Assembly: GCF_004337705.1 (NCBI RefSeq)
Contig: NZ_SKBU01000006.1
Location: forward strand, 1-64,000
DNA: 64,000 nt
Direction: 5' to 3'
From: Rubrobacter taiwanensis
Lineage (GTDB): Bacteria; Actinomycetota; Rubrobacteria; Rubrobacterales; Rubrobacteraceae
In this document: in pieces, positions 4,388 through 61,242 of the stretch
Layout of the letters: every line of letters starts with the position of its first letter
Position numbering within the stretch: the first letter of the stretch is position 1
Program-made: the position numbers and the translations under genes
Notes under the pieces: model-generated
Database searches by the model: none
What the model saw: the letters and a program-made list of their open reading frames with translations, nothing else
What the model was told of the DNA's origin: nothing

Positions 4388-4402
4388 CAGCCGCCGCGCA
4401 CT

Positions 4403-4431: not shown

Positions 4432-4444
4432 ATGCTCCCGACTC

Positions 4445-4517: not shown

Positions 4518-4523
4518 CCGCAG

Positions 4524-4548
4524 GAGAGCCCGCCCCCGGCGGGCTCTC
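4524..4548 (+). terminator. Hairpin terminator after tRNA-Glu
   Basis: GAGAGCCCGCC (4524-4534) pairs perfectly with GGCGGGCTCTC (4538-4548) around a 3-nt loop. It ends before the promoter of the next gene. Confidence 0.8.
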
Positions 4549-4554
4549 TCCGTC

Positions 4555-4560
4555 TATCAT
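4555..4560 (+). promoter_or_regulatory. -10 element TATCAT for the glycosylase gene
   Basis: TATCAT followed by seven bases and then ATG at 4568. The same hexamer-N7-start geometry recurs at several other genes in the window and suggests a leaderless mRNA. Confidence 0.5.
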
Positions 4561-4567
4561 GCCGGGC

Positions 4568-5236
4568 ATGCCGGACAACCTCGCAGACCTGAGGCGGGAG
4601 ATCACGGCCTGCCGCCACTGCCCGCGGCTGGTGGAGTGGCGCGAGCGCACCGCCCGCGAGAAGCGGGCCGCCTACAGGAACGAGACCTACTGGGGACGCC
4701 CCGTCCCCGGCTTCGGAGATCCGGCAGCCCGGGTGCTGCTGCTCGGTCTGGCCCCCGGAGCTCACGGAGCGAACCGCACCGGCCGCCCGTTCACCGGCGA
4801 CGGCACCGGGTTCCTCTTCGACGCCCTGTACCGGGCCGGCCTGGCCGACCGGCGGGAGTCCCGCCGTGCCGGCGACGGTTTGCAACTGTACGGGCTCTGG
4901 ATCTCGAACGCCGTCCGCTGCGCGCCGCCGCAGAACCGCCCCACCCCCTCCGAGCGCGACGCCTGCCTGCCCTACCTCGGACGGGAGATCGCGCTGCTGC
5001 GCAACCTGCGGGTCGCGGTCTGCCTGGGAGCGTTCGCCTGGGGGGCAGCGCTGCGCACCTTCGGAGTGCGCCCGAAGCCGAAGTTCGAACACGGAGCGGA
5101 ACACCCCGTACCCGGCCGGGGAATAACGCTCCTCGGCTGCTACCACACCTCCCGGCAGAACACCTTCACCGGAAGGCTCACGCCGGAGATGCTGGACGCC
5201 GTACTGATGCGAGCCCGCAACCTGGGAGGTAGCTGA
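4568..5236 (+). CDS. udgB: Type 5 uracil-DNA glycosylase (UdgB)
   Basis: Removes uracil and related deaminated bases from DNA. Residues GLAPGAHGANRTGRPFTGD carry the family 5 water-coordination loop, which lacks the polar residue used by other UDG families, and CYHTSRQNTFTGRLT holds the C-terminal DNA-contact motif; both match actinobacterial UdgB. N-terminal Cys residues (ACRHCP) and later Cys (VRCAPP, VCLG) are the expected 4Fe-4S ligands. Start: ATG 4568 is favoured over ATG 4559 because TATCAT at 4555-4560 fits a leaderless promoter seven bases upstream; using 4559 adds three residues. A second, type 4 enzyme is encoded at 29308. Confidence 0.88.
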   Translation: MPDNLADLRREITACRHCPRLVEWRERTAREKRAAYRNETYWGRPVPGFGDPAARVLLLGLAPGAHGANRTGRPFTGDGTGFLFDALYRAGLADRRESRRAGDGLQLYGLWISNAVRCAPPQNRPTPSERDACLPYLGREIALLRNLRVAVCLGAFAWGAALRTFGVRPKPKFEHGAEHPVPGRGITLLGCYHTSRQNTFTGRLTPEMLDAVLMRARNLGGS

Positions 5237-9566: not shown

Positions 9567-10727
9567 ATGAGCGCAGACGAGAATCTGCTGGTAATAGGAG
9601 ACACCGAGACCGGGGCCGACGGCTACCGCCTCTGCGGGTTTCTGGCACCGGACCCCGTAATCTGCGCCCGTGTGGGCGGAAGGACGTACCTGGCGGTCTC
9701 CGCTCTGGAGTATGGCCGTGCGCGCAGACAGGCCCGGGTAGACGAGCTGCTCAGCTTCGAGGAGCTAGATGTCCTGAAGCTCTCCCGCGAGCTCGGGGAC
9801 GGCAGCCGGGGTCTGGCTGCCGCTGCGGCCCGGCTGCTGCGGGAGCGTGGAGCGGATTCGGTCGCCGTGCCCCCTGCATTCGGGGTAGCCTACGCCGACG
9901 AGCTGCGCGCCCGGGGGGTGGAGGTCAGGCCCGACGGCGGGCTCTTCTCCCGGCTCCGGCGCACCAAGACGGAGGAGGAGATCTCGCACATCGAGCGCGC
10001 CCAGCGGGCGGTGGAGCGCAGCTGCGAGCGGGCCGTGGAGATCTTGCGCGAGGCGCGCACCGGTCCCGGAGGCGGGCTATTCTGGAACGGGGAGACACTC
10101 ACGAGCGAGATTCTGCGCAGCGAGATAGAGATCTCGCTGCTGAGGCATGGGTGCTCCGCGAAGGGGACCATCGTGGCCGGGGGCGCGCAGGCGGCGGACC
10201 CGCACGAGACGGGCAGCGGTCCGTTGCGGGCCGGGGAGACCATCATCCTCGACATCTTCCCGCTGGATCGCGAGAGCCGCTACCACGCCGACATGACGCG
10301 CACCTTCGTCAAGGGCGAGCCGCAGAGCGCGGAGATCGGACGCGCCTACCGGGCGGTGCTGGAGGCTCAGGAGGCAGCGCTCGGCATGATCCGGGCCGGC
10401 GCCAACGGCCGGGACGTGCACCGGAGGGTCTCTGACATCCTGCACGAGGCCGGGTACGAGACCACCGTGCATGACCAGAAGGAGGGTAAGCCGCTCACAC
10501 GGGGATTCTTCCACGGTACCGGACACGGGCTGGGCCTCGAGGTGCATGAGAGCCCGCGCATCTCGCTGGCAGACGAGGAGCTCCGGGAAGGGGATGTGGT
10601 CACGGTCGAGCCCGGCGTCTACGATCCGGCCTTCGGGGGCGTGCGCATCGAGGATCTCGTCGTGGTCACCGCGGAGGGGTGCCGCAACCTCACGCGCTTC
10701 CCCAAGGAGGAGTTCAGGATACCGTAG
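9567..10727 (+). CDS. M24-family Xaa-Pro dipeptidase/aminopeptidase
   Basis: A 386-residue pita-bread metallopeptidase. The N-terminal creatinase-like domain (about 1-150) is followed by the catalytic domain with the metal ligands in order: LDIFPLD, HADMTRTF, GTGHGLGLEVHE, and the Glu of VVTVEPGVY and GVRIEDLVVV. It hydrolyses peptides with proline in the second position; exact substrate unknown. ATG 9567 is preceded by GAAGGGAG. TAGAAT near 9534 is a plausible -10. Confidence 0.9.
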   Translation: MSADENLLVIGDTETGADGYRLCGFLAPDPVICARVGGRTYLAVSALEYGRARRQARVDELLSFEELDVLKLSRELGDGSRGLAAAAARLLRERGADSVAVPPAFGVAYADELRARGVEVRPDGGLFSRLRRTKTEEEISHIERAQRAVERSCERAVEILREARTGPGGGLFWNGETLTSEILRSEIEISLLRHGCSAKGTIVAGGAQAADPHETGSGPLRAGETIILDIFPLDRESRYHADMTRTFVKGEPQSAEIGRAYRAVLEAQEAALGMIRAGANGRDVHRRVSDILHEAGYETTVHDQKEGKPLTRGFFHGTGHGLGLEVHESPRISLADEELREGDVVTVEPGVYDPAFGGVRIEDLVVVTAEGCRNLTRFPKEEFRIP

Positions 10728-10760
10728 TACCGCCGCAGTTATAGTTTGTGGTGCGCAAGA

Positions 10761-10766
10761 TATAAT
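10761..10766 (+). promoter_or_regulatory. -10 element TATAAT of the kinase gene
   Basis: A consensus TATAAT placing transcription start near 10773, about 37 nt before the favoured CTG start. It sits inside the upstream part of the open frame, arguing that translation starts downstream. Confidence 0.55.
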
Positions 10767-10809
10767 TGGTCGGCAGAGGCTCTTCGAGCGCAGCGGGAGG
10801 TGGTGGAGC

Positions 10810-12129
10810 CTGAGGGCCCCGATCGGGACGGTCCTCGGAGACCGGTACAGGATTCAGAGCACGCTCGGCGAGGGGGGGATGGCCTCCGTATACAAAGCCG
10901 AAGACACGGTGCTCGGCCGCACCGTCGCCATCAAGGTCCTGCACCCCAGATACGCCTCTGACGAGGCCTTCCGCAGGCGTTTCAAGCAGGAGGCCCGGGC
11001 GATGGCCTCCCTCGACCACGAGAACATCGTCAAGGTCTACGATATCTCCCAGGACGACGGCACGCCCTTTATAGTGGCGGAGTACGTCGAGGGCCGGGAT
11101 GTGGGGGCCCTGCTCAAGACCAACGGAAGGTTCAACGAGCGGTTCACCCGGCGGATCGCCATCCAGCTTTTACGGGCGCTGGCCTACGCCCACCGGCGCG
11201 GCGTCATCCACCGCGACATCAAGCCCTCCAACATCCTCATAACGCAGGACGGGACGGTCAAGGTGGCAGACTTCGGCATCGCCCGGCTGGTCGAGGACGA
11301 GGACGTGGGCCGTCCCGGCGAGATTATCGGCAGCGCCCGTTACATGTCGCCCGAGCAGCTCACCGGTGAGGAGACCACGCCCCGCAGCGACATCTACTCT
11401 GTTGGGGTCTTCCTCTACCACTGCCTGACCGGTGCTACGCCCTTCAATGGCGACACCCGCAGCGTGGCCCGCCAGCAGATACACGACGAGCCGCGCTCGC
11501 CCCGCCTGATAAACCCCGAGATCTCGCCCCGGATGGAACACATCATCTTGCGGGCGCTCGCAAAGCAGCCCGCCGCCCGCTACCCGACGGCCACCGCCAT
11601 GCTGGATGCCATCCGCCTCCCGGCCCCCTCCGAACCGGCACCGGAGGCCCGGAAGGCGGCCGCACCGACGACGCGCCGCAGCCCGCCGCGCCGGCGGCGC
11701 GGGAGGCTGGCGCCGATGCTCCTCGTGGTCTTGCTGCTCCTGGTGGGCGGCGGAGCGGCGGCCGGGCTCACATATCTGACCCGCGAGAACCCGCCCCCCG
11801 TCGGGCAGCTGGAGCGTCCCGACGGGGGGCGGGAGACACCCGCTCCTCCGGCGGGCGGGGTGCCGGAGGAGAACCCGGCAGCCCCCGAGGAGGCGCAGGT
11901 CGTAATCCCCGATACCGACCTGTACTTCGACTGCTGGGCGCAAGAGTTCCTGCAGCGGGAGGGATTCGAGGTGGTGATCCGCTACCAGCCCCGGGAAGGG
12001 TATGCCAACAACGGCGTCACCTGGGCCACGGACCCGCCGGCGGGCGAGACGGCGCCGGAGGGTTCGACGGTCACCGTCTACGCCACTCCTGTGGACAACC
12101 CTGCCGCGCGGCAGTGCCCGGCGGGCTAG
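10810..12129 (+). CDS. Ser/Thr protein kinase, one TM, PASTA-like C-terminus
   Basis: An eukaryotic-type kinase of the PknB class. The kinase domain starts at GDRYRIQSTLGEGGMASVYKA and carries VAIKVL, HRDIKPSNI, DFGIAR and SPEQL. A Pro/Ala linker and basic RRRRG patch precede one TM segment (LLVVLLLLVGGGAAAGLTY), then an extracellular domain ending in one PASTA-like repeat with two cysteines. No ATG, GTG or TTG lies between the promoter and the Gly loop in this frame; CTG at 10810, nine bases after GGGAGG (10795-10800), is the best start. The first ATG (10879) would delete the Gly loop. It ends in CTAG shared with the convergent gene. Confidence 0.9.
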   Translation: MRAPIGTVLGDRYRIQSTLGEGGMASVYKAEDTVLGRTVAIKVLHPRYASDEAFRRRFKQEARAMASLDHENIVKVYDISQDDGTPFIVAEYVEGRDVGALLKTNGRFNERFTRRIAIQLLRALAYAHRRGVIHRDIKPSNILITQDGTVKVADFGIARLVEDEDVGRPGEIIGSARYMSPEQLTGEETTPRSDIYSVGVFLYHCLTGATPFNGDTRSVARQQIHDEPRSPRLINPEISPRMEHIILRALAKQPAARYPTATAMLDAIRLPAPSEPAPEARKAAAPTTRRSPPRRRRGRLAPMLLVVLLLLVGGGAAAGLTYLTRENPPPVGQLERPDGGRETPAPPAGGVPEENPAAPEEAQVVIPDTDLYFDCWAQEFLQREGFEVVIRYQPREGYANNGVTWATDPPAGETAPEGSTVTVYATPVDNPAARQCPAG

Positions 12130-36703: not shown

Positions 36704-37456
36704 TTAGATGCGGAAGACCTCGCCCGGCCCGGCGTGTTCGGCCGGGCCGCCGAACTCCGCGCGGGCTGCAGCTACCGAGGGAGCTTCCGGCCCGGGGATG
36801 TGGGTCAGCAGCAGCCGCCGCGCGCCCGCCATCCGGGCCAGCAGGCCGGCCTCGGCGGCGGAGAGGTGCATGCCCTCGGCCGATCTCCCGTCCGTGCCCC
36901 ACCCTGCTTCGCACAGGAAGAGATCGGCCCCGGTGGCGAATCCTGCCAGCGAGGGGTCCCAACCGGTGTCCGCCGAGTAGACGAGCGCCGCACCGCCAAG
37001 AGAGATCCGGAACGCGTACGTGTCGACCGGGTGGAGGGTCTTGTGAAAAGAGATTCGGACCTTGCCCAGCCGCAGCGTGCTGTCCGGATCGTACTCTGAG
37101 ACCCGGAACGCATCCTTGAAGAAGCCGGGAGAGGGTTCTACGGGTTCGACGACGCGCCGCAGCCGCTCCGCTGCGCCGGGCGGCAGGAAGAGGGGAAGCG
37201 ATGCCCGGCGTCCGGAACCAAAGAGCAGGTAGTAGCGAAAAGGCATCAGGTCCGCGAAGTGGTCGAAGTGGAGATGGGATATGATAACCGCCGAGAGGTC
37301 TTCCGGCGGCATCACGGCCCGCAGCCGCTCGAAGACTCCGGTGCCGCAGTCCAGCAGCACCCGGAGCTCGCCCGTCTCGATCAGGAAACCCGTACAGGCC
37401 CGGCCTGGGGAGGGCCAGGCCGGTCCGCTGCCGAGGACCCGGAGCCGGAGGCTCAC
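36704..37456 (-). CDS. MBL-fold metallo-hydrolase (RNase Z/AtsA-like), possible phosphodiesterase
   Basis: 250 residues. Zinc ligands are SHLHFDH (H61, H63, D65, H66), the His in TLHPVDTY, the Asp in YSADTGWDP and the His in LLTHIPGP. The fold subgroup includes RNase Z-like enzymes and phosphodiesterases. The GTG start overlaps the stop of the cyclase-kinase gene by 4 nt, so the two proteins are made together. Class II cyclic-nucleotide phosphodiesterases share this HxHxDH fold, so it may degrade the nucleotide made by its operon partner; that is inference from context, not from a diagnostic motif. Confidence 0.85.
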   Translation of the reverse strand: MSLRLRVLGSGPAWPSPGRACTGFLIETGELRVLLDCGTGVFERLRAVMPPEDLSAVIISHLHFDHFADLMPFRYYLLFGSGRRASLPLFLPPGAAERLRRVVEPVEPSPGFFKDAFRVSEYDPDSTLRLGKVRISFHKTLHPVDTYAFRISLGGAALVYSADTGWDPSLAGFATGADLFLCEAGWGTDGRSAEGMHLSAAEAGLLARMAGARRLLLTHIPGPEAPSVAAARAEFGGPAEHAGPGEVFRI

Positions 37457-39558
37457 GGCTTCCGGCTGACGGTCACGCTCACAGGCTGGTTCGGGAGGGA
37501 CATGCTGCCCGCGGCGGGGATCTGGGAAACGATCTGCCCCGCTGGGGCGGCCGCGTCCGGATCTTCGCGCACGTTGCCAAGGTTGAGCCCGGAGCCGTTA
37601 AGCCTGCCGCGAGCCTCCTCCATCGTAAGCCCTGCGAGATCGGGGACGGTAACCAGCCGCTGGTTGCTGCTGCCCAGCGAGACGGAGATCTCGGAGCCCG
37701 GCTCCGCCGCCGCGCCGCTCGGCGGGTCCTGGCTGATAACGATATCCTCCGGGTCCGGGCTGGACTCGCTGGCCACGACTTCGAAGCCGCCTGCGGATGC
37801 CCGGGCCTCCTCCAGCGTCTGCCCCACCAGATCCGGGACGGTGGACTCTCCGGCCCCGCCGCCCGGAGAAGATCCGCCGGGTCCGAAGACCGTCCATATC
37901 AGGCCGCCCAGCACCACGGCCGCCGCAAACGCTCCGGCGACCAGCACTCCACCCCTCCGCCCGCCTCTCTCCGGCGGAGGGAGCGGTGTCTGGACCTGCT
38001 GTTCGATCTTCTGGTCTTCGCCTCCCCGCTCACGCTCTTCCAGTTCCTGCTCGATCAGGGTCAGGTCTCCGACTTCCCGCTCGCGCTCCAGCTCTTCCCT
38101 CGACTCCACTATCGTGTCCCCGCTCACACGCATATCGAGCATCCTTTCGAGGTCCGTTATCAGAGCCGCTGCCGACGGATAACGCTTTTCGGGGTCTTTA
38201 GACAGCAGGCGCAGGGTTATTCCGTTCAGCTCCTCAGGAATATCCGGCCTCACCTCCCGGGGCGGGCTGCAATCCCCCCTCAGGTGGCACATCATGATCG
38301 CCGCCGGGGTATCGGCCTTGTAGGGGACCTCACCGGTAAGCATCTCGTACAGGACTATGCCTAAAGAGTACAGGTCGCTCCGGGCTGTGGCTTCCTCACC
38401 CCTGACCTGCTCAGGCGAGATATACTGGGCCGTACCCATCACTGAGCCCTCCTGGGTGATCGAGGCCCCAGACGAGGCACGGGCGATGCCGAAGTCTGCC
38501 ACCTTAGCCTCTCCACCCTCGGTTATGAGTATGTTCTGCGGTTTTATGTCCCGGTGGATGATGCCGTGCTGGTGAGCGTAGTCCAGAGCCCTGGCTATCT
38601 GCATCGTGTATCTCGCCGCTCTTTCGGGTTCGAGCGGCCCCTCGCGCTCGATAACACCCTTGAGGGTCCCGCCTGGGAGGTACTCCATTACTATGTAGTA
38701 GGCGCCCTCCCTGGTCTCGCCCCAGTCGTGCACGGGGACAATGTGCGAGTGTGATAGCGAAGCTGCGCTCTGCGCCTCTCGCCGGAAGCGCTCCAGAAAC
38801 GGTTCGTCAGAAGCATACTGCGGCCGGAGCGCCTTGAGCGCCACCTTCCGCCCCAAAACCTGATCGTATGCCAGATACACCTCCGCCATCCCACCCCCGC
38901 CGATGGGGTACTCGATCTGGTAGCGGTCGCCGCCCGACCTCCCCCCGGCATCCTCTTTCCCGGGCAGCACGGGCCCGGCCGTCTTGATCGGGGGGAAGTC
39001 CGCCGGCAGGTCCGGGACGACGAGCTGGTAGATGTCCTCCGTGTAGCGCAGATCCCGCAGCCGGTGCTCGCCCAGCGGCCTCAGCTCGGCCTCCGGCTCC
39101 ACATGCACCAGGTGATCGCGCATCAGGTAGTACGCCGCGCCGGAGACCAGGATCTGCCCCCCATGCCCGGCGCTCATCAGGCGCGCAACGCGGTTTACCG
39201 GCGGCCCGAAGTAGTCGCCGCCACGCTCGGTCGCCGCGCCGCTGTGCAGAGCCATGCGGACCCGGATCACGCATCTTGGATCCCACGGCTCGGCGAAGAG
39301 CGCCCGTTGGGCCGCCAGCGCCGCCATGAAAGCCTGCCGGGCCGAGTTGAACGCCACGCAGTAAGCGTCGCCGACGGTCTTGAATATATAACCCTCGTTC
39401 GCCTCCATGGCGGCAGCGAGTATCTCATTGTGCCGCACGACGGCCACGTCCATCTCCACCGGGCAGCTCTCGTAGAGAGCCGTCGAGCCCTCGATGTCCG
39501 TGAACAGGAACGTTACCGTGCCGCTGGGAAGACGATCCGATCCATCACGGGAAGCCAT
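37453..39558 (-). CDS. Class III nucleotide cyclase - Ser/Thr kinase - TM - 2x PASTA fusion
   Basis: 701 residues. Residues 14-180 are a class III cyclase with both metal Asp (FTDIEGST, D21; TVGDAY, D64), base-contacting K60, D115 of GGDYFG, and the transition-state pair N122/R126 (VNRVAR), so it looks active. Residues 212-470 are a PknB-like kinase: Gly loop IGGGGMAEVYLA, K242, HRDIKPQNI (335-343), DFGIAR (355-360), activation segment GTAQYISPEQ. A charged helical linker, one TM segment (about 538-557) and two PASTA repeats (571-628, 635-699) follow. The start is ATG 39558. One protein thus carries a second-messenger synthase and a receptor kinase. Divergent from genes with cyclic-nucleotide and FHA domains. 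Confidence 0.95.
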   Translation of the reverse strand: MASRDGSDRLPSGTVTFLFTDIEGSTALYESCPVEMDVAVVRHNEILAAAMEANEGYIFKTVGDAYCVAFNSARQAFMAALAAQRALFAEPWDPRCVIRVRMALHSGAATERGGDYFGPPVNRVARLMSAGHGGQILVSGAAYYLMRDHLVHVEPEAELRPLGEHRLRDLRYTEDIYQLVVPDLPADFPPIKTAGPVLPGKEDAGGRSGGDRYQIEYPIGGGGMAEVYLAYDQVLGRKVALKALRPQYASDEPFLERFRREAQSAASLSHSHIVPVHDWGETREGAYYIVMEYLPGGTLKGVIEREGPLEPERAARYTMQIARALDYAHQHGIIHRDIKPQNILITEGGEAKVADFGIARASSGASITQEGSVMGTAQYISPEQVRGEEATARSDLYSLGIVLYEMLTGEVPYKADTPAAIMMCHLRGDCSPPREVRPDIPEELNGITLRLLSKDPEKRYPSAAALITDLERMLDMRVSGDTIVESREELEREREVGDLTLIEQELEERERGGEDQKIEQQVQTPLPPPERGGRRGGVLVAGAFAAAVVLGGLIWTVFGPGGSSPGGGAGESTVPDLVGQTLEEARASAGGFEVVASESSPDPEDIVISQDPPSGAAAEPGSEISVSLGSSNQRLVTVPDLAGLTMEEARGRLNGSGLNLGNVREDPDAAAPAGQIVSQIPAAGSMSLPNQPVSVTVSRKP

Positions 39559-39774
39559 CTCTCCAGCTCAACTCCTCTTTGCCACCCCTTCTTCGTAAGT
39601 AAGGCGGGCCTCTAGACCATCTCAATCCTGACTCTATCAAGTGCGCCAGCCGCAGCGGACAATTCTTCGAGATTTTTCTCTCAAACCAGAAATTTCACAT
39701 ACCCCACAGCAATCCCGGTTGGATAGAGTTGGGTTGTAACGCGTGTTGTGAGTTCCGGAAAGAAAGGGGGACTC
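39559..39774. promoter_or_regulatory. Divergent intergenic region of the signalling cluster
   Basis: 216 bp without a gene, relatively AT-rich in the middle (39640-39720). GGATAGAGTT with TAGAGT at 39724-39729 is the likely plus-strand -10, about 45 nt before the TTG at 39775. Bases 39595-39640 probably hold the minus-strand promoter, but no clear box was recognised. Confidence 0.5.
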
Positions 39775-40041
39775 TTGCAAGATGGGGAATACCCGGTGGT
39801 GGAGAGAAGGATCGGCCGTATCTACCTGTCTGCGGTTATCGCGGTAGCGCTGGTTCTCCTGCTGGCGGCCGGAGGGCCTGCTCTGGCGCAGGAGACCCAG
39901 ACCCCGCAGACGCTGGGCGGGGGCGAGATCGGCTACCTCGACTGGCTGTACCACCTTCCGCTGGCGCTGGGCTGCGCACTGCTGGTGGTAGCGGTAGACG
40001 CGTTCGTGATCCTCCGGTACATCCGCGGGAAGGAAGCCTGA
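39775..40041 (+). CDS. Small membrane protein
   Basis: 88 residues from TTG 39775, which follows AAAGGGGGA; a GTG at 39748 is a longer alternative. It has a signal or TM segment (IYLSAVIAVALVLLLAAGG, cleavage-like ALAQE) and a second TM segment (LPLALGCALLVVAVDAFVIL) ending in RYIRGKEA. The topology suggests either an exported protein with a C-terminal anchor or a two-TM hairpin. No family recognised. It lies 2 nt upstream of the cyclic-nucleotide-binding membrane protein and is presumably its partner. Confidence 0.7.
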   Translation: MQDGEYPVVERRIGRIYLSAVIAVALVLLLAAGGPALAQETQTPQTLGGGEIGYLDWLYHLPLALGCALLVVAVDAFVILRYIRGKEA

Positions 40042-40043
40042 GA

Positions 40044-41318
40044 ATGGGCGCCACGCTGGAACGCTTCGTCTCGCTGCGGCGCGTCCCGATGAAGGCGGTT
40101 CTGGCGACCGCGCTGGTCTCCTGGGCTTTGCAGGCCTACGCCTTCGCGACGGGGCAGCCGTTCTACCTGATAGTCATCCTGGCCGTGATCCCCTGGATAC
40201 CGCTGGCCCTCTTCGAGGGGCTCTGGAAGTACCAGCACTACAGCTGGATGGCGGTCTTCGCCGTGGTCACCGCCCTGCAGGTGCTGCACATGGGCGAGCA
40301 CTTCCTGCAGGTGACGCAGCTCAGCGTGCTCAACGGGACGCTCGCCTGCCCGCCGCCCTCGGAGGGAGCCACCTTCGCAACCCGCATCGTCATGCCGGAC
40401 GCGGCAGGCCAGCCCACAGACGTGGTCGGACCGGCTGCCTGCGGCGTGCTGGGGTTTCTGGACTTTGAGCTGGTGCACCTTGTGTGGGATACGGCGGTCT
40501 GGCTCGGGGCGCTGTGGCTGCTGACCAAGTTCCCGCGCAACGCCTGGCTGTGGGTGGCCATGATCTTCGCCAGCATCCACGAGGTCGAGCACCTCTTCCT
40601 CGGCTACATCTACTACGTCGAGACGGCGGCCATCTACACGTACCCCAAACAGATGTGGGACCTCGTCCGCGACGGCAACATCCTCACCGCGGTGCCGGCC
40701 GGTATAGAGGTCGTTCCGGCCACCTTCTACGAGGCTGGGGGCAAGACGGGCATCCTGGGCCGCGGCGGGCTGGTAGAGGTTCTGCTCTTCGGGGAAGGTT
40801 CGCAGAGCTTCCTGCTGCGTCCCTACCTGCACTTCGGGTACAACTCGCTGGTCGTCATCCCGACGGTTATAGCGTTCCTGGTTCAGGCCCGCAAAGTGCG
40901 CGACGAGTACCTGGCAAAGGCGCTGCCCACGCTGACCGAGGAGCAGATGATCCAGGCCACACCCCTGCTCGAGCGCGAGGCGTTCGATGCCGGCGAGGTC
41001 ATCATCCGTCAGGGCGACATAGCCGACAAGTTCTACATCATCACCAGGGGCGACGTCGAGGTGCTGCGTGAGCAGCCCGGCGGCCGGGAGCTGGTCATCA
41101 CCCGGCTGGGTCCCGGCCAGTACTTCGGCGAGATCGGGCTGCTCCACGGCGGCAAGCGCACGGCCACCGTACGCGCAGCCGGAGACGTGGAGGTCATGTC
41201 GCTGGACCGCAACACGTTCGCCAGCCTGATGGACAGTTCGGAGCTGAGCAAGGCCGAAGTAGAGCGCCTCGTGCGCCAGCGGGTGAGGCAGTTGCACGCG
41301 ATGAAGACCGGTGGGTGA
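40044..41318 (+). CDS. Polytopic membrane protein with C-terminal cyclic-nucleotide-binding domain
   Basis: 424 residues. Residues 17-285 have six or seven hydrophobic segments with paired His/Glu motifs, HMGEH (82-86) and HEVEH (179-183, an HExxH pattern), plus H65, H145 and H263, suggesting an intramembrane metal site. Residues 315-400 are a cNMP-binding domain with phosphate cassette FGEIGLLHGGKRTATV, containing the Glu and Arg that contact ribose and phosphate. The N-terminal family was not recognised. ATG 40044 with GGAAGGAAG upstream; its stop overlaps the GTG of the next gene (GTGA), so both are translated together. Confidence 0.85.
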   Translation: MGATLERFVSLRRVPMKAVLATALVSWALQAYAFATGQPFYLIVILAVIPWIPLALFEGLWKYQHYSWMAVFAVVTALQVLHMGEHFLQVTQLSVLNGTLACPPPSEGATFATRIVMPDAAGQPTDVVGPAACGVLGFLDFELVHLVWDTAVWLGALWLLTKFPRNAWLWVAMIFASIHEVEHLFLGYIYYVETAAIYTYPKQMWDLVRDGNILTAVPAGIEVVPATFYEAGGKTGILGRGGLVEVLLFGEGSQSFLLRPYLHFGYNSLVVIPTVIAFLVQARKVRDEYLAKALPTLTEEQMIQATPLLEREAFDAGEVIIRQGDIADKFYIITRGDVEVLREQPGGRELVITRLGPGQYFGEIGLLHGGKRTATVRAAGDVEVMSLDRNTFASLMDSSELSKAEVERLVRQRVRQLHAMKTGG

Positions 41319-43849
41319 TCCCCGTGGCCCCGCAGAAGACCCGCGTCCTGATCCTCGGCGGCGGGTTCGGCGGCATAGCCACGGCCCAGGGGCTCTCGAA
41401 GGCGTTCAAGCGCGACCCGGCGGTGGAGATCACGCTCATCAACCGGGACAACTACTTCGTCTTCGTGCCCCTGCTGGCCTCGGCCGCCGCGGGATCGGTA
41501 GAGACGATGCACGTGGTGGCCCCGATCCGGCGCCTGATCCCGGGCGTCCGGTTCCGGGCCGAAGAGATAACCGGGATAGATCCCAGCTCAGGGACGGTGA
41601 CGACCTCCTCGCCGGTCACCGGGCGCGAGCACCGGCTCTCCTACGACCACCTGGTGCTCGCGCTGGGGAACCGCATCAACCTCTCCCGCCTGCCGGGCGT
41701 GGCGCAGCACGGCAAGACGATCAAGACCCTAGGCGACGCCATCTCCATCCGCAACCACGTGCTCCAGATGCTGGAGGCCGCGGACATCGAGACCGACCCG
41801 GCGATCCGGCGCGCGATGCTCACGTTCGTGGTGGCGGGCGGCGGGTTCTCCGGCGTCGAGATGGTCGGCGAGCTGAACGACCTGGTGCGCGAGGCGATCG
41901 AGTACTACCCCTCGATCTCCCGGGAGCAATTGCGGGTAGTCCTGCTGCACTCCGGGGACCGGATTCTGCCGGAGATGGGAGCGGAGATAGCGGGCTACGC
42001 CCTGAAGCAGCTCCGCAAGCGCGGCGTGGAGGTACGCCTCCGGGCGCGTCTGGCCGGAGCCACCCCCCGGGAGACGCTGCTGGAGGGCGGCGCGCGGATA
42101 GCCACCCGCACCCTGATCGTAGCGGTCGGCAACGCCCCGCCCACCGTCCTGGAGGATCTGGACGTGCCGAAGGAGCGCGGCCGGATCGCGGTGGACGACT
42201 TCATGCAGGTGCTGGGACACCCCGGCCTGTGGGCGCTCGGCGATAACGCCGTCGTTCCCAATCGGGCCACCAAGGACGGTTCCCCGAGCCCGCCCACGGC
42301 CCAGTACGCGCTGCGCCAGGGGAAGGCGCTGGCGCACAACATCGGGGCCGCGATCCGCGGCGGGCGCGCACGGCCGTTCGCGTTCGGCGGGCTGGGACTC
42401 CTGTGCACGGTGGGCCACGGGGCCGGGGTCGGCGAGCTGCCGCTCGGCATCAAGACCCGGGGGATGCTCGGCTGGCTTTTGTGGCGGAGCGTCTACTGGT
42501 CCAAAGCGCCCAGCCTCGGGCGCAAGCTCCAGATCGGGGCGGACTGGTTCCTGGACCTCTTCCTCAAGCGGGATATAGCGCAGATCAACCTCTCAAGAAC
42601 CCAGACCGTCGGCCGCGCCCATTACGAAGCTGGAGAGTACATCTTCCGCCAGGGCGACCCCGGAGATCATTTCTACATGATCGCCTCCGGCGAGGTGGAG
42701 GTAATCCGGGAGCGCTCCTCCGGCGCAAAAGAGGTGCTGGCCCGCCTGAGCCAGGGTGAATACTTCGGCGAGACGGCGCTGCTCACCCGCGCCCGCCGCA
42801 ACGCCTCGGTCCGCTGCGCCACGCCGGTGGACGTGATCACCATCGGCCGCGACGACTTCGCAACGCTCGCCGGAGCCTGGCAGCAGCTCGCCAGCAGCCT
42901 CAAGGAGACCTCCGAGCAGCGGGTCTCTGCCGCCCCCCTGACCGCCTTCCTGCCCGTGGTGAGCGTCCCGGACATCCCCGAGACCTCCCCCGCCCGATCC
43001 CTGGAGGAACCAGCCGTGCGCCGCATCGCTCAGCTGCGCCGGGACTCTGGCGCAGAGATAGATCTGGACCGGGACCTCATCACCATCGGCCGCACCCCGG
43101 ACAACCACATAGTCGTCCCCGACCCCCAGGCCTCGCGCCGGCACGCGCTTATCCAGCGCGACGGAGACGCTTACCGGATAGACGACCTGGAGTCCACCAA
43201 CGGCACCTGGGTCAACGGCGAGCGGATAACCGAACCCCGCCCACTGCGTAACGGCGACGAGATCCTGGTCGGGCAGACCCGGTTCACCTTCCAGGCAACG
43301 GCAGCCGGGAGCGCGCCTTCCGGCGGCCAGAGGCCGGGGTCTGTCACGGCCGAAATCCACCGCCTCGACGAGCTGCAGCGGGAGCAGGAGGCCGGCCCCG
43401 TCACCGGCGCCCTGAAGAGCCTGGGCGAAGCGGAAGAGCAGGAGGAGCCCCGGAATCCCGCCGCGCCGCCCGCGGCCCGGGCGGCGCTCCACACCGCCGG
43501 CGGGCGAACCTTCGAGCTGGGCCCGGGAGGAGCCACCATCGGCCGCATGCCCGATAACTCCATCCGGCTCGACGACGGCAAGCTCTCACGCCGGCACGCC
43601 CGGATAGAGTTCAGGGACGGCGGCTACTGGCTGAGCGACCTCGGCAGCAGCAACGGCACGTTCGTCAACGGAATTCGTCTGGGTGCCCCGTACCTGCTGA
43701 GGCCCGGCGACACAATAACCTGCGGCGACACGCAGCTCGTCTTCCGGCCTGCGGCGGAAGGCGAGTCCCCGGAGCGGGGCTCGATCACGGACATGCTCAA
43801 GGCTCTCGATGCTCCAGATCGGCAGGGAAGCGGCGAGCGGCCGTCATGA
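41315..43849 (+). CDS. Type II NADH dehydrogenase fused to cNMP-binding and two FHA domains
   Basis: 844 residues. Residues 8-425 are an NDH-2-like flavoprotein: FAD loop LILGGGFGGIA (12-22), NAD loop VVAGGGFSGVEMVGEL (172-187), LWALGD (305-310), quinone-side TAQYALRQGKA (328-338) and an amphipathic membrane anchor (383-420). Residues 434-525 are a cNMP-binding domain (FGETALLTRARRNASV, R495). FHA1 spans 578-660 (GRTPDN, SRRH 607-610, STNGTWVNG) and FHA2 724-812 (GRMPDN, SRRH 758-761, SSNGTFVNG). Both FHA domains keep the phosphothreonine-binding residues. It oxidises NADH and passes electrons to quinone, probably under control of cyclic nucleotide and Thr phosphorylation. Confidence 0.94.
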   Translation: MIPVAPQKTRVLILGGGFGGIATAQGLSKAFKRDPAVEITLINRDNYFVFVPLLASAAAGSVETMHVVAPIRRLIPGVRFRAEEITGIDPSSGTVTTSSPVTGREHRLSYDHLVLALGNRINLSRLPGVAQHGKTIKTLGDAISIRNHVLQMLEAADIETDPAIRRAMLTFVVAGGGFSGVEMVGELNDLVREAIEYYPSISREQLRVVLLHSGDRILPEMGAEIAGYALKQLRKRGVEVRLRARLAGATPRETLLEGGARIATRTLIVAVGNAPPTVLEDLDVPKERGRIAVDDFMQVLGHPGLWALGDNAVVPNRATKDGSPSPPTAQYALRQGKALAHNIGAAIRGGRARPFAFGGLGLLCTVGHGAGVGELPLGIKTRGMLGWLLWRSVYWSKAPSLGRKLQIGADWFLDLFLKRDIAQINLSRTQTVGRAHYEAGEYIFRQGDPGDHFYMIASGEVEVIRERSSGAKEVLARLSQGEYFGETALLTRARRNASVRCATPVDVITIGRDDFATLAGAWQQLASSLKETSEQRVSAAPLTAFLPVVSVPDIPETSPARSLEEPAVRRIAQLRRDSGAEIDLDRDLITIGRTPDNHIVVPDPQASRRHALIQRDGDAYRIDDLESTNGTWVNGERITEPRPLRNGDEILVGQTRFTFQATAAGSAPSGGQRPGSVTAEIHRLDELQREQEAGPVTGALKSLGEAEEQEEPRNPAAPPAARAALHTAGGRTFELGPGGATIGRMPDNSIRLDDGKLSRRHARIEFRDGGYWLSDLGSSNGTFVNGIRLGAPYLLRPGDTITCGDTQLVFRPAAEGESPERGSITDMLKALDAPDRQGSGERPS

Positions 43850-43926: not shown

Positions 43927-45570
43927 CTAAACCCGCTCCCGCTCCTCGTCGTAGGGCCAGCCCCAGATGCCGCCCTCCAGCGCCCGCACGTCCCGGGCGC
44001 CGGCCTCCCGGAGCTTCAGCGCGGCCTCATAAGAGCACCGGCCGTTGCCGCAGTAGACGACGATGGGCGCGCCGAGATCCAGCTCCGGGATGCGGTCGTC
44101 CAGCTCCTCGAGCGGGATGCGGATCGCGCCCTTTATCCGGTGGGTCGCCGTGCCGGCAGGCTGCACGTCCACCAGCTGCACCTCCGGCAGCGCCGCGCGG
44201 ACTTCGGGGGCTCTGATCTCCCGGATGCCGGCTTCGATCCGGTTCTCCAGCACCCCCGCCGCCGTGATAACCGGGCTCAGGGTAGGTCCGAACGGCGGCG
44301 CGTAGGCCAGGTCCAGGTTCATCAGGTCCCGGTACGTGAGCCCGCCCCAGATCGCGGTCGCGCAGACGTCTATGAGCTTGTCCGCGTTCCCGCCGACGGC
44401 CTCCGCCCCGAGCACACGCCCGCTCTCCCGGTCGGCGACCAGCTTGAGGAAGACCTCCCGCCCGCCGGGGTAGTACCCGGCCGTGCTGCGCGCCTCGATG
44501 GTGGCGCAGACGGCATCGAAGCCCGCTTCCTCGGCCTCTTCCAGCGCGAGCCCGGTCTTCGCCACCCCGAGCTCGAAGACCTTAAAGACCCCGGTCCCGA
44601 GCACGCCCGGGAACGTATCCGAGCCGCCGGCCAGGTTCGTCCCGGCGACCCGCCCCATCTGGTTCGCCGTATCCCCCAGCGGCATCCATACGGGGCGCCC
44701 GCTCACCAAGTGCCGGCTCTCCACGCAGTCTCCGGCGGCCCACACGTCCGGGGCGCTCGTGCGGAGCTGCCCGTCCACCCGGATGGCCCCGGTCTCCCCG
44801 AGCTCTATCCCGGCGGCCTCCGCCAGCCCCACCTCGGGCCTCACCCCGACGCCGGCTATGGCGAGGGAGGCCGGGATCTCCCCGCCGCCCACCCGGACGG
44901 CCCGCACCCGCCCGTCGCCCAGGATCTCCTCGACCCCCGCTCCGGTGATCGTGCGCACACCCTTCTCGCGCAGGTGGCGCTCCACGTTCCTGGAGATCTC
45001 TTCGTCGTAGCCGGGCAGAATGCGGTCGGCGAGCTCGACCATACAGATTTCAAGCCCCCGCTCCACCAGATTCTCCGCGAGCTCCAGCCCGATGTACCCG
45101 GCCCCGATCAGGACCGCCCGCTCCGGCCGGTGGCGCTCCATATACGCCAGTATTTCGTCCGCATCCGAGAGGAAGCGCAGCGTGAAGACCCCATCCAGCT
45201 CCGCGCCGGGGACGGGCGGCAGGTTAGCCTTCGCCCCCGTGGCGAGCAGGAGCCGGTCGTAGGAGTCCTCGAACTCCTCGCCGGTCTGCAGGTTGCGGAC
45301 GGTGAGGCGCTTGCCGGAGACGTCCAGCTCCGTCACCCGGTGGCGCACGAGCGCGCGGATGCCTTGCCTGCCGAACTGCTCCGGGGTGCGGGCGATGAGC
45401 CGGTCCCGGCTCTTTACGGTGCCGGAGATGTAGTACGGCAGGCCGCACGCGCCGATCGAGGTCTCAGGTTCGGCCTGGTAGAGCGTGATCTCCATCTCCG
45501 GGTCCAGGCGGCGGGCACGGGCGGCGGCCTTCGTACCGGCGGCCACCCCGCCGACGACCACGAGCTTCAT
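43927..45570 (-). CDS. CoA-disulfide-reductase-like flavoprotein with rhodanese domain
   Basis: 547 residues. An FAD/NAD(P) disulfide-reductase-like fold: VVVGGVAAGTKAAARARR (3-20), the single redox Cys in SIGACGLPYYISG (Cys 43), NAD loop LIGAGYIGLELAEN and WAAGDCVE. Residues from about 455 are a rhodanese domain with active-site loop YCGNGRCSYEA. This is the domain order of CoADR-RHD enzymes, which reduce CoA disulfides, persulfides or polysulfides. ATG 45570. It is convergent with the NDH-2 fusion gene and not obviously part of that circuit. Confidence 0.9.
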   Translation of the reverse strand: MKLVVVGGVAAGTKAAARARRLDPEMEITLYQAEPETSIGACGLPYYISGTVKSRDRLIARTPEQFGRQGIRALVRHRVTELDVSGKRLTVRNLQTGEEFEDSYDRLLLATGAKANLPPVPGAELDGVFTLRFLSDADEILAYMERHRPERAVLIGAGYIGLELAENLVERGLEICMVELADRILPGYDEEISRNVERHLREKGVRTITGAGVEEILGDGRVRAVRVGGGEIPASLAIAGVGVRPEVGLAEAAGIELGETGAIRVDGQLRTSAPDVWAAGDCVESRHLVSGRPVWMPLGDTANQMGRVAGTNLAGGSDTFPGVLGTGVFKVFELGVAKTGLALEEAEEAGFDAVCATIEARSTAGYYPGGREVFLKLVADRESGRVLGAEAVGGNADKLIDVCATAIWGGLTYRDLMNLDLAYAPPFGPTLSPVITAAGVLENRIEAGIREIRAPEVRAALPEVQLVDVQPAGTATHRIKGAIRIPLEELDDRIPELDLGAPIVVYCGNGRCSYEAALKLREAGARDVRALEGGIWGWPYDEERERV

Positions 45571-57841: not shown

Positions 57842-59124
57842 CTATCCTGATCTTCCACCCGGGCGTCTTTGAGCGGGGAGAATGCGACCCACAGCACGCC
57901 CATAAAGCTTCCTAAGGCCGCCACCAGGATCGTCGGCGCGAGACCCACAGCTTCGCCCAGAAATCCGCCCAAAAGCGCTCCCACGGGCATCGAGCCCTGG
58001 ATGAAGAAGCGCCGGGTGGCGTGCACGCGCCCCAGCAGCCGGGAAGGCGTTATGGCCTGGATGAGGCTTATGCCGTTGACACCATAGGTTATGGCTCCCA
58101 CGCCAAAGATGAACTTGGAGAACAAGAGTACTGCGGCTGCTACTATCTCGGGTCCGGGCAGGACTCCTGCGAGCGGGATCAGCAGGTAAGAGATACTGTC
58201 CAATATGTAGGCCCACAGGAGGGTTCTGCCCTCTCCGTAGCGCCGAGCTGCTTTAGCGGCCAGCGCGGCGCCCAAGAGGCCGCCAATGGCACCCGCTCCC
58301 AAGATGATCCCTAAAAGAGCCGGGGAGATACTGACCTCCCGAGTGACGTAGAGCACGAAGATGGCATCCTGGATGGCCCAGAAGAGGGTTATGACGATCC
58401 CACTGCCGGCGATGGTTCTTTGGATGGGAGCGCGAACCACAAAGTTCATCCCCTCCATTACGTCCTTCCATATCTTCCGTCGCTCCGGGGTCGACTCTGG
58501 CGGCGGTTCTTCGCGCCGGATCGCACCGAAGAGCGCGGCTGAGACCACCATCGAGACGGCTTGAAACGCCACGGCTATAGGAGCCGTCAGGAGCTGCACC
58601 AGCACCCCGCCGGCAGAGGGACCCGCGATCTGGGCCAGCGAGCGGCTCGCCTCCAGCCGGGAGTTGGCCGCAGGAAGCCACCCGCGCGGCACGAGCGAGG
58701 GCAGATACGACTGGTAGGCCACATAGAAGAAGACCAGAAGCGTCCCGGTAAGGAACCCGACGACATAAAGCTGCCAGAGACTCAGGAATCCCAGCAAGGC
58801 CGCAGCCGGTATCGAACTCAGGAGCAACGCCGAACCGAGAGCGGTGACTATCATTACGGGCCGGCGGCGCAGGCGGTCCACCCACGCCCCCGCAAACAGC
58901 CCTACCACAAGCCACGGAGCTTGCTGAACGGCTGCCAGAAGCCCCATCTGCGCCGCCGAAGCATCGAGGGTTATGACGGCCGTGAGCGGGATGGCCAGCA
59001 AAGAAACCTGCATCCCCAGCATCCAAATGCTCTGTCCGGCCCAGAGCTTGAGGAAGTCTCGCTTCTCCTCCGAATCGCCGGATTCGGGAGGGGACAAAGC
59101 CTGCAAGAATCGCAGGCGATTCAT
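57838..59124 (-). CDS. MFS transporter (enterobactin exporter-like)
   Basis: 428 residues, twelve hydrophobic segments, with the MFS loop 2-3 motif GLFAGAWVDRLRRRPVM and loop 8-9 copy ALAAKAARRYGEGRTLL. It belongs to the EntS/MFS_3-type exporters of siderophores, drugs or metabolites. ATG 59124 is the best family start although its ribosome site is weak; GTG 59130 is possible. It is divergent from the gene at 59280. Slightly lower GC than neighbouring genes. Confidence 0.85.
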   Translation of the reverse strand: MNRLRFLQALSPPESGDSEEKRDFLKLWAGQSIWMLGMQVSLLAIPLTAVITLDASAAQMGLLAAVQQAPWLVVGLFAGAWVDRLRRRPVMIVTALGSALLLSSIPAAALLGFLSLWQLYVVGFLTGTLLVFFYVAYQSYLPSLVPRGWLPAANSRLEASRSLAQIAGPSAGGVLVQLLTAPIAVAFQAVSMVVSAALFGAIRREEPPPESTPERRKIWKDVMEGMNFVVRAPIQRTIAGSGIVITLFWAIQDAIFVLYVTREVSISPALLGIILGAGAIGGLLGAALAAKAARRYGEGRTLLWAYILDSISYLLIPLAGVLPGPEIVAAAVLLFSKFIFGVGAITYGVNGISLIQAITPSRLLGRVHATRRFFIQGSMPVGALLGGFLGEAVGLAPTILVAALGSFMGVLWVAFSPLKDARVEDQDR

Positions 59125-59279
59125 CGACACTAGGACGCTGATGTTCCCGCGCGTACCATCTACGCCTTCATACACCACGATGAGCAGAGAATGCAAGTTC
59201 TTGTTTAGCAGTCCCCGCTCCTGGGTATGCGATTTTTGGGTAACCGTGTAGGCCACAACGAAGGAAAGGAGGGCCTAGT

Positions 59280-59786
59280 ATGGAGGCAAAGAACTCGGCA
59301 CTCCTCACTGAAGCTGAAACGCGGTGGGAGAAGCTGTTGTGTCCGCAAAACTGCAGCTTTCGGATGCAAACCATCGAGCCAGAGACCTGGAGCGGCCTTT
59401 GGAAGTTCGACCTCAAGGGAATACCTGCCTTTATCTCCGCGTATAAGAATGTGCTTGAGATGGTGCGCTGGCTCGCCATCTATGAGCCGGAGAAGGCCAT
59501 TCCGCTCGGTGAGGACGCACTTGCAGATCTCGAAGAACTCCTGCGGGTGGCCAGGGAGAAACTTTCCTACGAGATGAGCCGTGATGACGTACCCGACTCT
59601 TACGAGTGGGCCACGAGCGAGTGCATCCAGCGTCTCGAAGCCATCCACGCGGCACTGGCAGCCCTGATCGACAAGGTTGAGACAGGAACGGAGAAGATCG
59701 AGAAGGCCGAGGTCTACTCGTTACTTGAGAGGCTGCATCAGCATACAGTCAATCCACCTGGCTGGACGGATTACAAGCCGGCATAA
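59280..59786 (+). CDS. Hypothetical helical protein
   Basis: 168 residues, not recognised. No TM or signal. It is helical, with two Cys near the N-terminus (LLCPQNCSF) and a coiled-coil-like part (about 125-150). Base composition is clearly lower in GC than most of the window, hinting at a different origin. ATG 59280 with GAAAGGAGG upstream; followed by a strong terminator, so a stand-alone gene. Confidence 0.75.
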   Translation: MEAKNSALLTEAETRWEKLLCPQNCSFRMQTIEPETWSGLWKFDLKGIPAFISAYKNVLEMVRWLAIYEPEKAIPLGEDALADLEELLRVAREKLSYEMSRDDVPDSYEWATSECIQRLEAIHAALAALIDKVETGTEKIEKAEVYSLLERLHQHTVNPPGWTDYKPA

Positions 59787-59813
59787 GAGCCCGGCAAACC
59801 TGTCCTTCGTAGC

Positions 59814-59844
59814 GCGGGAGAAGGTGATTTATCTCTTCTCCCGC
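59814..59844 (+). terminator. Rho-independent terminator
   Basis: GCGGGAGAAG (59814-59823) pairs with CTTCTCCCGC (59835-59844) around an 11-nt loop and is followed by TTCTTT, the clearest U-tract terminator in the window. Confidence 0.88.
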
Positions 59845-59909
59845 TTCTTTAGCCTTGGTGTTGCGAGAACATATCTCCCGTGCAGGCAGAGCAGAAAGGG
59901 TTCAGATAC

Positions 59910-60737
59910 ATGAGTGAACAAGGACTCGAAGCCCGGCATGTGATCGCGATAGGAAGCGGCAAGGGCGGCGTGGGGAAATCCACGGTGAGCCTGAACCTGG
60001 CCCTGGCTCTGGCGCAGGAGGGCGCATCGGTAGGCTTGCTGGACGCGGATTTCTACGGGCCGAACATCCCCGTGATGGTAGGGCTGACCAGGACGCAGGA
60101 GGCGCAGAAGTGGTCGTTCTGGCGGCATCCGGGAGCAGGCGGGCTTGGTATGGACCCCATCGAGCGCTTCGGGGTGAAGATCATGTCCGTCGGGTTCCTG
60201 CTCGGCGAGCGCCAGCAGGTCTTCTCCTGGGGGCCGCTGGTCGGACAGATCGGCTACCAGATGCTCCACCACGTGCGCTGGGGCAGGCTGGATTACCTGA
60301 TCATCGACCTCCCGCCGGGTGCCGCAGAGGTCCAGCAGGAGCTGCTGCGCTCGCTCTCCCTCTCCGGCACGGTCGTGGTGGTCGGCCCTCAGGATGTGGC
60401 TCACCTGGACGCCAAGAAGATCATTGAGATGCTCAAGAAGCTTGAGATCCGGGTTCTTGGAGGCGTTGAGAACATGAGCAGAGTCCGCTGCCCCTGCTGC
60501 GGCGAGCAGTTCGAGGTGTTCCCGCACGTCCGCACCGACCGCTCGATCTGGTCGCTTGGTGTCCCGCTTTTGGGAAGCGTGCCGCTCGGCCCTGCAGTCG
60601 CGCACGAGGCCAACCGAGGCAAACCGATTGTCGTCTCCCAACCCGATAGTGCAGAGGCCCGCGCTTTCCGAAAGATAGCAACCTCCGTTGTGCGTAGGCT
60701 CCACTCAACGGAAGACGGAGAGAGCAGCCCCTCGTAG
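59910..60737 (+). CDS. Mrp/NBP35-type P-loop ATPase, short form
   Basis: 275 residues. Deviant Walker A SGKGGVGKSTVSLNLALA, LDADFYGPNIPVMVG (switch I), YLIIDLPPG (Walker B) and CPCCG (CxxC, residues about 194-198) with VENMSRVRCPCC. Mrp proteins carry or load Fe-S clusters. The usual N-terminal MIP18/DUF59 domain is absent. ATG 59910 with GAAAGGG upstream. The first frame start at 59880 is not supported by a ribosome site. Confidence 0.9.
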   Translation: MSEQGLEARHVIAIGSGKGGVGKSTVSLNLALALAQEGASVGLLDADFYGPNIPVMVGLTRTQEAQKWSFWRHPGAGGLGMDPIERFGVKIMSVGFLLGERQQVFSWGPLVGQIGYQMLHHVRWGRLDYLIIDLPPGAAEVQQELLRSLSLSGTVVVVGPQDVAHLDAKKIIEMLKKLEIRVLGGVENMSRVRCPCCGEQFEVFPHVRTDRSIWSLGVPLLGSVPLGPAVAHEANRGKPIVVSQPDSAEARAFRKIATSVVRRLHSTEDGESSPS

Positions 60738-60795
60738 CAGACGCTGGTCCTGGTTTTCATGCAGTGGAGATCGAGCGCCTGTGTTGGGCTCCTAC

Positions 60796-61242
60796 CTCAG
60801 CTCCTCCCCGCACCGATCGATCCACACCCGCTTGCACTTATAACCTTCCCCTTCGAGACCGAACTTGCGACATAGATCGGCACTTCCAAACTAACCGCCA
60901 GCGCAATCGCATCGCCACGCTCCGCACCTCAAGCCCCACCGCTTCCAGGAGCCGCTGCGTAAAGTCGTGGGCCAGCAGCCGGGACATACGCCTGCCGCTG
61001 ACCGCCTGCCAGATATCCAGGGCGGCGTCCAGGGGCACCCGAACAGGCAGCACCCGTTCGCCGTACGCCTCGCGCAACACCAACACGGCGGGGAGTCTCT
61101 GGTGGGCGTAGAGTTCGAGCAGGCTGCGCAACTCGTCCATGGACCCGGCCGCTTTCAGCAGCTTGCGTACCTCACCAATCCCGAGCTTTACGACCTCGTC
61201 GACCACGACCTCGACCGTCTCCGCCGGTGCTCTCGCGCCCAC
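60796..61242 (-). pseudogene. Bifunctional-nuclease-like (DUF151) gene, deleted and frameshifted
   Basis: The frame from 61242 encodes VEVVVDEVV, an unusual 30-residue helical insert, then LPAVLVLREAYGERVLPVRV, RLLAHDFTQRLLEAVGLEVRSVA as in DUF151. Immediately afterwards another frame gives GDAIALAVSLEVPIYVASSV, the conserved DUF151 C-terminus, up to a TGA at 60796. About 35-45 residues between the two blocks are missing and the frame is shifted at about 60903. The gene product is therefore not a complete nuclease. Confidence 0.7.

Follow-up and report, generated by a model that had tools for sequence, protein, structure and literature searches.

The 64,000-nucleotide window analysed here (contig NZ_SKBU01000006.1 of Rubrobacter taiwanensis, positions 1 to 64,000) encodes, between positions 36704 and 43849, two divergent operons, of which one carries a fusion of a cyclase and a Ser/Thr kinase and the other a membrane protein and an NDH-2-type flavoprotein equipped with cyclic-nucleotide-binding (cNMP) and forkhead-associated (FHA) domains. 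In our evenly balanced assessment, this locus could be a membrane redox module controlled by second messengers, to which a local cyclase-kinase was joined in this lineage. This reading builds on the gene order, domains and motifs observed at the locus, on the conservation of the plus-strand (receiver) half in Chloroflexota and on the ancestries of both halves. Bacterial respiration is usually viewed as controlled by transcription or redox state. A dehydrogenase with receptors for cyclic nucleotides and phosphothreonine would subject respiratory flux to rapid control by second messengers, comparable to signalling in eukaryotes, and the locus suggests a hormone-like control of NADH oxidation.

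Gene and domain content of the locus

A check of the open reading frames (ORFs) confirmed the five genes of the original prediction, in two tight divergent operons separated by a gap of 237 bp, and refined two starts: the small protein begins at a GTG (39796), and the membrane-cNMP gene most likely begins at ATG 40044 rather than at the start of the long TTG ORF. The features are the following:

36704-37456, minus strand: metallo-beta-lactamase (MBL)-fold hydrolase, 250 aa, PF12706, candidate atypical class-II cyclic-nucleotide phosphodiesterase (PDE)
37453-39558, minus strand: adenylate-cyclase / Ser-Thr kinase / transmembrane (TM) / 2x PASTA fusion, 701 aa (Pfam, NF033483)
38170-38922, minus strand: PknB-type kinase domain, catalytic residues intact
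39085-39525, minus strand: class III cyclase domain, sole PF00211 match in the genome
39559-39795, no strand: divergent intergenic region, 237 bp, 51% GC
39796-40041, plus strand: small membrane protein, GTG start, 81 aa, signal/TM segment then a second TM segment
40044-41318, plus strand: integral membrane protein, unannotated family, cNMP domain at the C-terminus; conserved H82, E85, H86, E142, H145, H179, E182, H183 and H263
40977-41237, plus strand: cNMP-binding domain A (FGEIGLLHGGKRTATV), PF00027, phosphate cassette
41315-43849, plus strand: 844-aa flavoprotein of NDH-2 type with a fused cNMP domain and two fused FHA domains
42620-42868, plus strand: cNMP-binding domain B (FGETALLTRARRNASV), directly after the NDH-2 membrane-anchor region
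43079-43273, plus strand: FHA domain 1, PF00498 and motifs
43535-43726, plus strand: FHA domain 2, followed by the tail motif RGSITDMLKALD with candidate phospho-Thr825

Overlaps of 4 nt join the MBL gene to the cyclase-kinase gene and the membrane-cNMP gene to the NDH-2 gene, and no convincing CRP-like palindrome, sigma-70 promoter consensus or terminator was found between the operons (39559-39795). The domain content proposed for all the proteins was borne out by Pfam. Indeed, the cyclase-kinase matches Guanylate_cyc (7.3e-15), Pkinase (3.2e-56) and two PASTA domains (1.3e-26), with a single TM helix at about aa 532-563; the MBL protein matches Lactamase_B_2 (6.7e-26); the membrane protein matches cNMP (1.1e-26); and the NDH-2 fusion matches Pyr_redox_2 (1.1e-46), NDH2_C (over its cut-off), cNMP (3.2e-25) and two FHA domains (6.1e-47). 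Since all domain E-values are strong and the genome encodes a single class III cyclase, these are not chance matches.

The motifs that had been described as intact in the cyclase, kinase, cNMP and FHA domains were all located. The cyclase domain scores 55.5 bits with PF00211 (cut-off 21.9), which identifies it as a class III cyclase domain, and has the complete class III residue set in FTDIEGS, FKTVGDA and GDYFGPPVNRVAR, which we take, from the residue roles in Rv1625c, to supply the metal Asp pair, the Lys/Asp adenine pair and the Asn/Arg transition-state pair. Because the ATP-selecting Lys and Asp are retained, cAMP is the likelier product than cGMP. The kinase motifs VALK, HRDIKPQN and DFG are intact, and the NF033483 score (503.5; curated cut-off 450), the catalytic residues, the TM helix and the PASTA domains identify a Stk1/PknB PASTA kinase, whose kinase domain has PknB as its nearest PDB relative. 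Membership of the TOMM kinase/cyclase fusion family (TIGR03903) was rejected (191.7 versus a cut-off of 705.75).

On the plus strand, cNMP domains A and B both exceed the PF00027 cut-off and have the FGE...R cassette, both FHA domains exceed the PF00498 cut-off and have GR...SRRH...NG, and the NDH-2 fold is recognizable by two GxGxxG dinucleotide motifs (the second GxGxxGxE) and the NDH2_C membrane domain. In the tail of the NDH-2 fusion, RGSITDMLKALD (T825) and PGSVTAEIHRLD (T678) match the repeats PGTITDVLKDLD and PGSITDILHGLD of a Chloroflexota counterpart (L032); the repeated Thr motif, PGS(I/V)T(D/A)x(L/I)xxLD, occupies residues 674-685 and 821-832 and is common to the L032:766-3237 tail. 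These regions around the FHA domains are probably disordered, and recognition of the tail Thr by an FHA domain is plausible because Ile or Leu stands at +3. By analogy with OdhI/GarA, a self-bound phospho-switch is possible at this Thr; PDB matches of the FHA domains include GarA.

The suggestion that the MBL protein could be a phosphodiesterase gained support. It carries SHLHFDH at aa 60 and an Asp (in SAD) at aa 161, and fits the definition of atypical class-II PDEs, PF12706 with [T/S]HxHxDH (PMC9293780). Furthermore, it is its own genome's best match to NF041851, full-length at 159.4 bits (equivalog cut-off 400; the genome's second locus reaches 95 bits), and YhfI (PDB 6kns) is among its two best PDB matches. 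It thus resembles Rv1339/YhfI-type PDEs and is a candidate cyclic-nucleotide phosphodiesterase.

The membrane domain (40044-40931) has no relative in Pfam (to E = 10), NCBIfam or PDB sequence searches. In its alignment with L158-L170, the motifs HxxEH, ExVH, HxxEH and LHFxYN are nearly invariant and sit in or at hydrophobic segments; family members occur with and without cNMP/FHA tails. From this conservation, the His/Glu clusters probably form a metal or haem site, the protein is a candidate new metalloprotein, and the unannotated family may be a new kind of metalloenzyme. An AlphaFold model of the membrane-cNMP protein, from a 3-row alignment, was unusable (pLDDT 49). A CopD identity was discarded, as a weak match of L160 (E 0.012) covers an N-terminal extension outside the family domain. 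A small TM ORF similar to that of the locus precedes the membrane-cNMP gene in the Chloroflexota genome G206 (L158:9021-9242), and several other family members are extended at the N-terminus, with a TM segment of similar VVDA type. As a separate observation, at L160:9169-14984 a stand-alone family gene immediately follows genes for tryptophan dioxygenase, a kynureninase-like protein and FAD/FMN oxidoreductase, in an operon of kynurenine/anthranilate type.

Ancestry and Chloroflexota counterparts

The source genome (3.04 Mb, 99.7% complete, 0.4% contaminated; contig of 350 kb) was compared with a class sample of 40 genomes, all of one family, in which it is the sole member of its genus. The cyclase is 61-69% identical to cyclases of the class, and between the kinase and the PknB-like kinase of the same genome the identity is 60%. 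Class cyclases are fused to kinases in two relatives, G031 and G034, with PASTA domains detected in neither. These relatives have cyclase-kinase and cyclase-kinase-kinase fusions (L260, G031:C236; L261, G034:C13), and the G031 cyclase is without the adenine-selecting Lys (FSEGGDA).

The divergent arrangement, for which the original prediction had proposed a search in related genomes, is absent from the 39 class relatives and from 396 other sampled Actinomycetota, as are the plus-strand operon and the membrane domain. The NDH-2 fusion occurs in none of the 39 class genomes, where matches to it stop no later than residue 434, except for a few that continue into stop-interrupted sequence. In Chloroflexota, the membrane domain and the NDH-2-cNMP fusion were each found in 14 of 400 genomes, and a plasmid search returned matches confined to the cNMP domain. 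In a maximum-likelihood tree, the NDH-2 of the window groups with L032 and then L033 (each 100/99) inside the Chloroflexota NDH-2-cNMP proteins, apart from the class NDH-2s and the two own-genome paralogs included. On these sequence relationships, the receiver operon is of Chloroflexota ancestry and the cyclase-kinase of the minus strand (the sender) is native to this actinobacterial class. As the receiver is Chloroflexota-type but the cyclase and kinase are class-like, the divergent arrangement was probably assembled in this lineage. The plus-strand genes have a GC content of 66-70% and a third-position GC content (GC3) of 0.82-0.90, like their surroundings, so that the transfer was not recent and contamination is unlikely.

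Two Chloroflexota metagenome-assembled genomes, L032 (NC_groundwater_1009) and L033 (KatS3mg057), encode the full pair of membrane-cNMP and NDH-2-cNMP-FHA proteins in the same order, with 55-59% identity for the NDH-2 fusion. In L033, a kinase-FHA gene lies upstream of the membrane-cNMP gene; in L032, genes for an FHA protein, a PP2C, an FHA protein and two kinases lie downstream. The receiver half is therefore conserved in Chloroflexota with Ser/Thr kinases nearby. The NDH-2 fusions of the window and of L032 have two FHA domains, that of L033 has one, and two more are on its membrane partner. A split form exists in G439 (L161), with membrane-cNMP, NDH-2-cNMP and FHA genes in succession, and G128 encodes an FHA-NDH-2-cNMP protein (FHA N-terminal) and, elsewhere, a membrane-cNMP-FHA protein.

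A cyclase does adjoin the NDH-2-cNMP gene in one group. In G061 and G242, a response-regulator-cyclase gene either diverges from an MBL gene (PF12706) or lies one gene away from it, and NDH-2-cNMP follows the MBL gene; in G210, the contig end falls inside the apparent start of the same cyclase gene. These three genomes form one clade in the tree and thus count as one independent case, which is supportive but short of conclusive, because Chloroflexota carry many cyclases (8-33 per genome in the four counted). G367 keeps the MBL gene with NDH-2-cNMP, and eight other NDH-2-cNMP loci have no cyclase and no kinase within 18 kb. Conservation outside the genome is therefore partial: the receiver half and, in one clade, a response-regulator-cyclase analogue recur, but the close relatives have no adjoining cyclase.

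Two observations on such neighbourhoods were also recorded. Response-regulator-cyclase, MBL hydrolase, CrtO/CrtI-like FAD enzyme and NDH-2-cNMP genes occur together in L253 (3379-9706), L251 (8833-16201; with a histidine kinase downstream of the cyclase), L254 and L255, which by gene content is a two-component/cAMP/NDH-2 cluster of Chloroflexota. A gammaproteobacterial metagenome-assembled genome (L035) encodes an NDH-2-cNMP fusion and a class III cyclase about 5 kb away (9941-11584, 3789-5036).

Proposed mechanism and alternative explanations

In the mechanism that we infer, in which the ligands, the regulatory effects and the direction of control are all predicted, the plus strand would supply, besides a small TM protein, an integral membrane protein rich in His and Glu and an NADH:quinone oxidoreductase of NDH-2 type. 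The two large proteins have C-terminal cNMP domains, and that of the NDH-2 fusion follows the membrane-anchoring helices. Binding of cAMP would jointly alter how active both large proteins are, how they dock to the membrane or how they assemble with each other. The FHA domains would take phosphothreonine peptides as a second input, from a kinase partner or from the protein's own SITDxL-type tail, and phosphothreonine would probably control the redox module alongside cAMP. The minus-strand operon would be the local source, with the sole class III cyclase carried on a PASTA-sensing kinase, and the PDE-like MBL hydrolase the local cAMP sink; the cell-wall state sensed by PASTA would in this way pass to NADH oxidation.

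The genome-wide domain counts bear on this proposal. The class III cyclase (PF00211) of the locus is the only one in the whole genome, and it stands 237 bp head to head with two of the genome's ten cNMP domains; by a rough, post hoc estimate, the chance that a cNMP locus is the divergent neighbour of the cyclase is about 9 in 3000 genes, near 0.3%. The position of the sole cyclase opposite two cNMP domains is supported, but a dedicated loop is not, as eight cNMP domains are encoded elsewhere. There are also seven Ser/Thr kinases over the cut-off (one at the locus, one more in the window and one PknB-like on contig C12) and six FHA domains, four of them away from the locus. Hence the closed loop of the original prediction was overstated, because both signals can have other sources or targets in the genome. 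With its single class III cyclase, the genome suits a simple test.

Several observations weigh against the proposed control. The exact pairing of sender and receiver occurs in this genome only, and further cNMP, FHA and kinase proteins are encoded elsewhere in it. The L032 and L033 loci have no adjoining cyclase, and 11 of the 14 Chloroflexota genomes with NDH-2-cNMP have none within 10-18 kb (some of these intervals are ended by the contig). No CRP-like site lies between the two operons. One cNMP cassette has RTA, which is common in cGMP binders as well. Finally, the protein is a divergent NDH-2, with Val in place of W261 and AQYALR at the position of the quinone motif AQxAxQ; a survey of the family, from which the dinucleotide-motif criteria also come, found AQxAxQ in 62% and W261 in 99% of NDH-2s (PMC5299459). 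The protein is for this reason named NDH-2-type, and its substrate and acceptor are uncertain.

A chance neighbourhood is a possible, though somewhat unlikely, explanation. An acquired Chloroflexota redox operon would then lie beside a native cyclase-kinase/MBL operon and work separately, the cyclase-kinase serving CRP-type regulators and cell-wall targets and the NDH-2 sensors answering any cellular cyclic nucleotide or kinase. The different ancestry of the two halves, the absence of the exact pairing from every relative and the G031 and G034 cyclase-kinase fusions, which have no NDH-2 on the same contigs (short contigs only), agree with this, whereas the position of the genome's only cyclase, directly divergent to two of ten cNMP domains, and the recurrence of a cyclase beside NDH-2-cNMP in another lineage do not. 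Even with such a chance neighbourhood, cAMP from the sole cyclase would most likely be the cNMP ligand.

It is unlikely that the cNMP and FHA domains are mainly scaffold or oligomerisation modules, or bind another ligand, and that the NDH-2 and the His/Glu membrane protein are tethered as a supercomplex instead of sensing signals. Some CRP/FNR-type domains do bind other ligands; the occurrence of cNMP domains on both partners, their conserved adjacency and the variable number and position of FHA domains among relatives, as in interaction modules, would suit such a role, but the residues that contact the ligand are retained in all four domains (FGE...R in the two cNMP domains, SRRH/NG in the two FHA domains). 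An assembly artefact or contamination joining a Chloroflexota contig to an actinobacterial one is very improbable: the relatives of the receiver operon are Chloroflexota only, but the contig is 350 kb long in a nearly complete genome with little contamination, the plus-strand composition fits the surroundings, unlike the 55-61% GC of L032 and L033, and identity to these relatives is merely 55-59%.

An extension of the second-messenger-controlled redox module appears distinctly doubtful: the three plus-strand proteins would make up a respiratory branch not described before, running from NADH through quinone to a novel membrane oxidoreductase of di-metal or haem type, with both large proteins jointly gated by cAMP and phosphothreonine and the cyclase-kinase PASTA receptor as dedicated controller.

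Elsewhere in the window, a second Ser/Thr kinase (10471-12129, 552 aa) has a kinase domain 47% identical to that of the cyclase-kinase, a CoA-disulfide-reductase-like flavoprotein with a rhodanese domain (43927-45570) is convergent to the NDH-2 operon, and GC drops to about 59% at 58000-61000, within a window of 68% GC. On another contig, L259 (G000:C12:36000-52000) carries two FHA genes and two kinase genes, one of the kinases (701 aa) having PASTA repeats, and looks like the source genome's canonical PknB/FhaA/FhaB-type cluster.

Comparison with known systems

The closest counterparts are the uncharacterised NDH-2 fusions of L032 and L033, which share the pair of large proteins, its order and the 55-59% identity, and differ in the absence of an adjacent cyclase, in FHA number and in having separate kinases where the locus has a cyclase-kinase fusion. 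In cNMP-GNAT acetyltransferases (M. smegmatis KATms, M. tuberculosis Rv0998), an enzyme is directly gated by a fused bacterial cNMP domain. NCBIfam NF058543 matches the cNMP part at the locus, but those acetyltransferases are another enzyme, with no FHA domain and no linked cyclase.

Calcium-binding (EF-hand) NDH-2s (N. crassa NDE1, plant NDB; NDH-2 B clade; PMC6134880) likewise join a respiratory NDH-2 to an added sensing domain, but their sensor and signal are different and no messenger-making enzyme is linked to them. In the OdhI/GarA switch (PMC2784874, PMC10415282), Ser/Thr kinases and an FHA protein control an energy-metabolism enzyme as at the locus, but OdhI/GarA is a separate inhibitor, whereas here the enzyme itself carries the FHA domains, together with cNMP. 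Myxococcus xanthus Pkn2 (PMC1262709) and the TOMM fusions (TIGR03903) have a kinase and a class III cyclase in one chain; the cyclase of the locus is N-terminal and its chain ends in a TM helix plus PASTA domains. The MBL protein shares PF12706, the [S/T]HxHxDH motif, the full-length NF041851 match and the 6kns match with the PDEs Rv1339, YhfI and C. glutamicum CpdA (PMC9293780), but its 159 bits, against a curated cut-off of 400, do not qualify it as an ortholog. In M. smegmatis, oxygen consumption and the NADH/NAD+ ratio are reported to shift when Rv1339 lowers cAMP (PMC9293780).

Literature searches, in which subscription journals were thinly covered, returned no NDH-2 that carries a cNMP or FHA domain; proteins with additional fused domains had been excluded from the main survey of the NDH-2 family (PMC5299459). 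Individually, all the principles have precedents, namely a sensor-fused NDH-2, a kinase-cyclase fusion, FHA control of an energy enzyme and a cNMP-gated enzyme.

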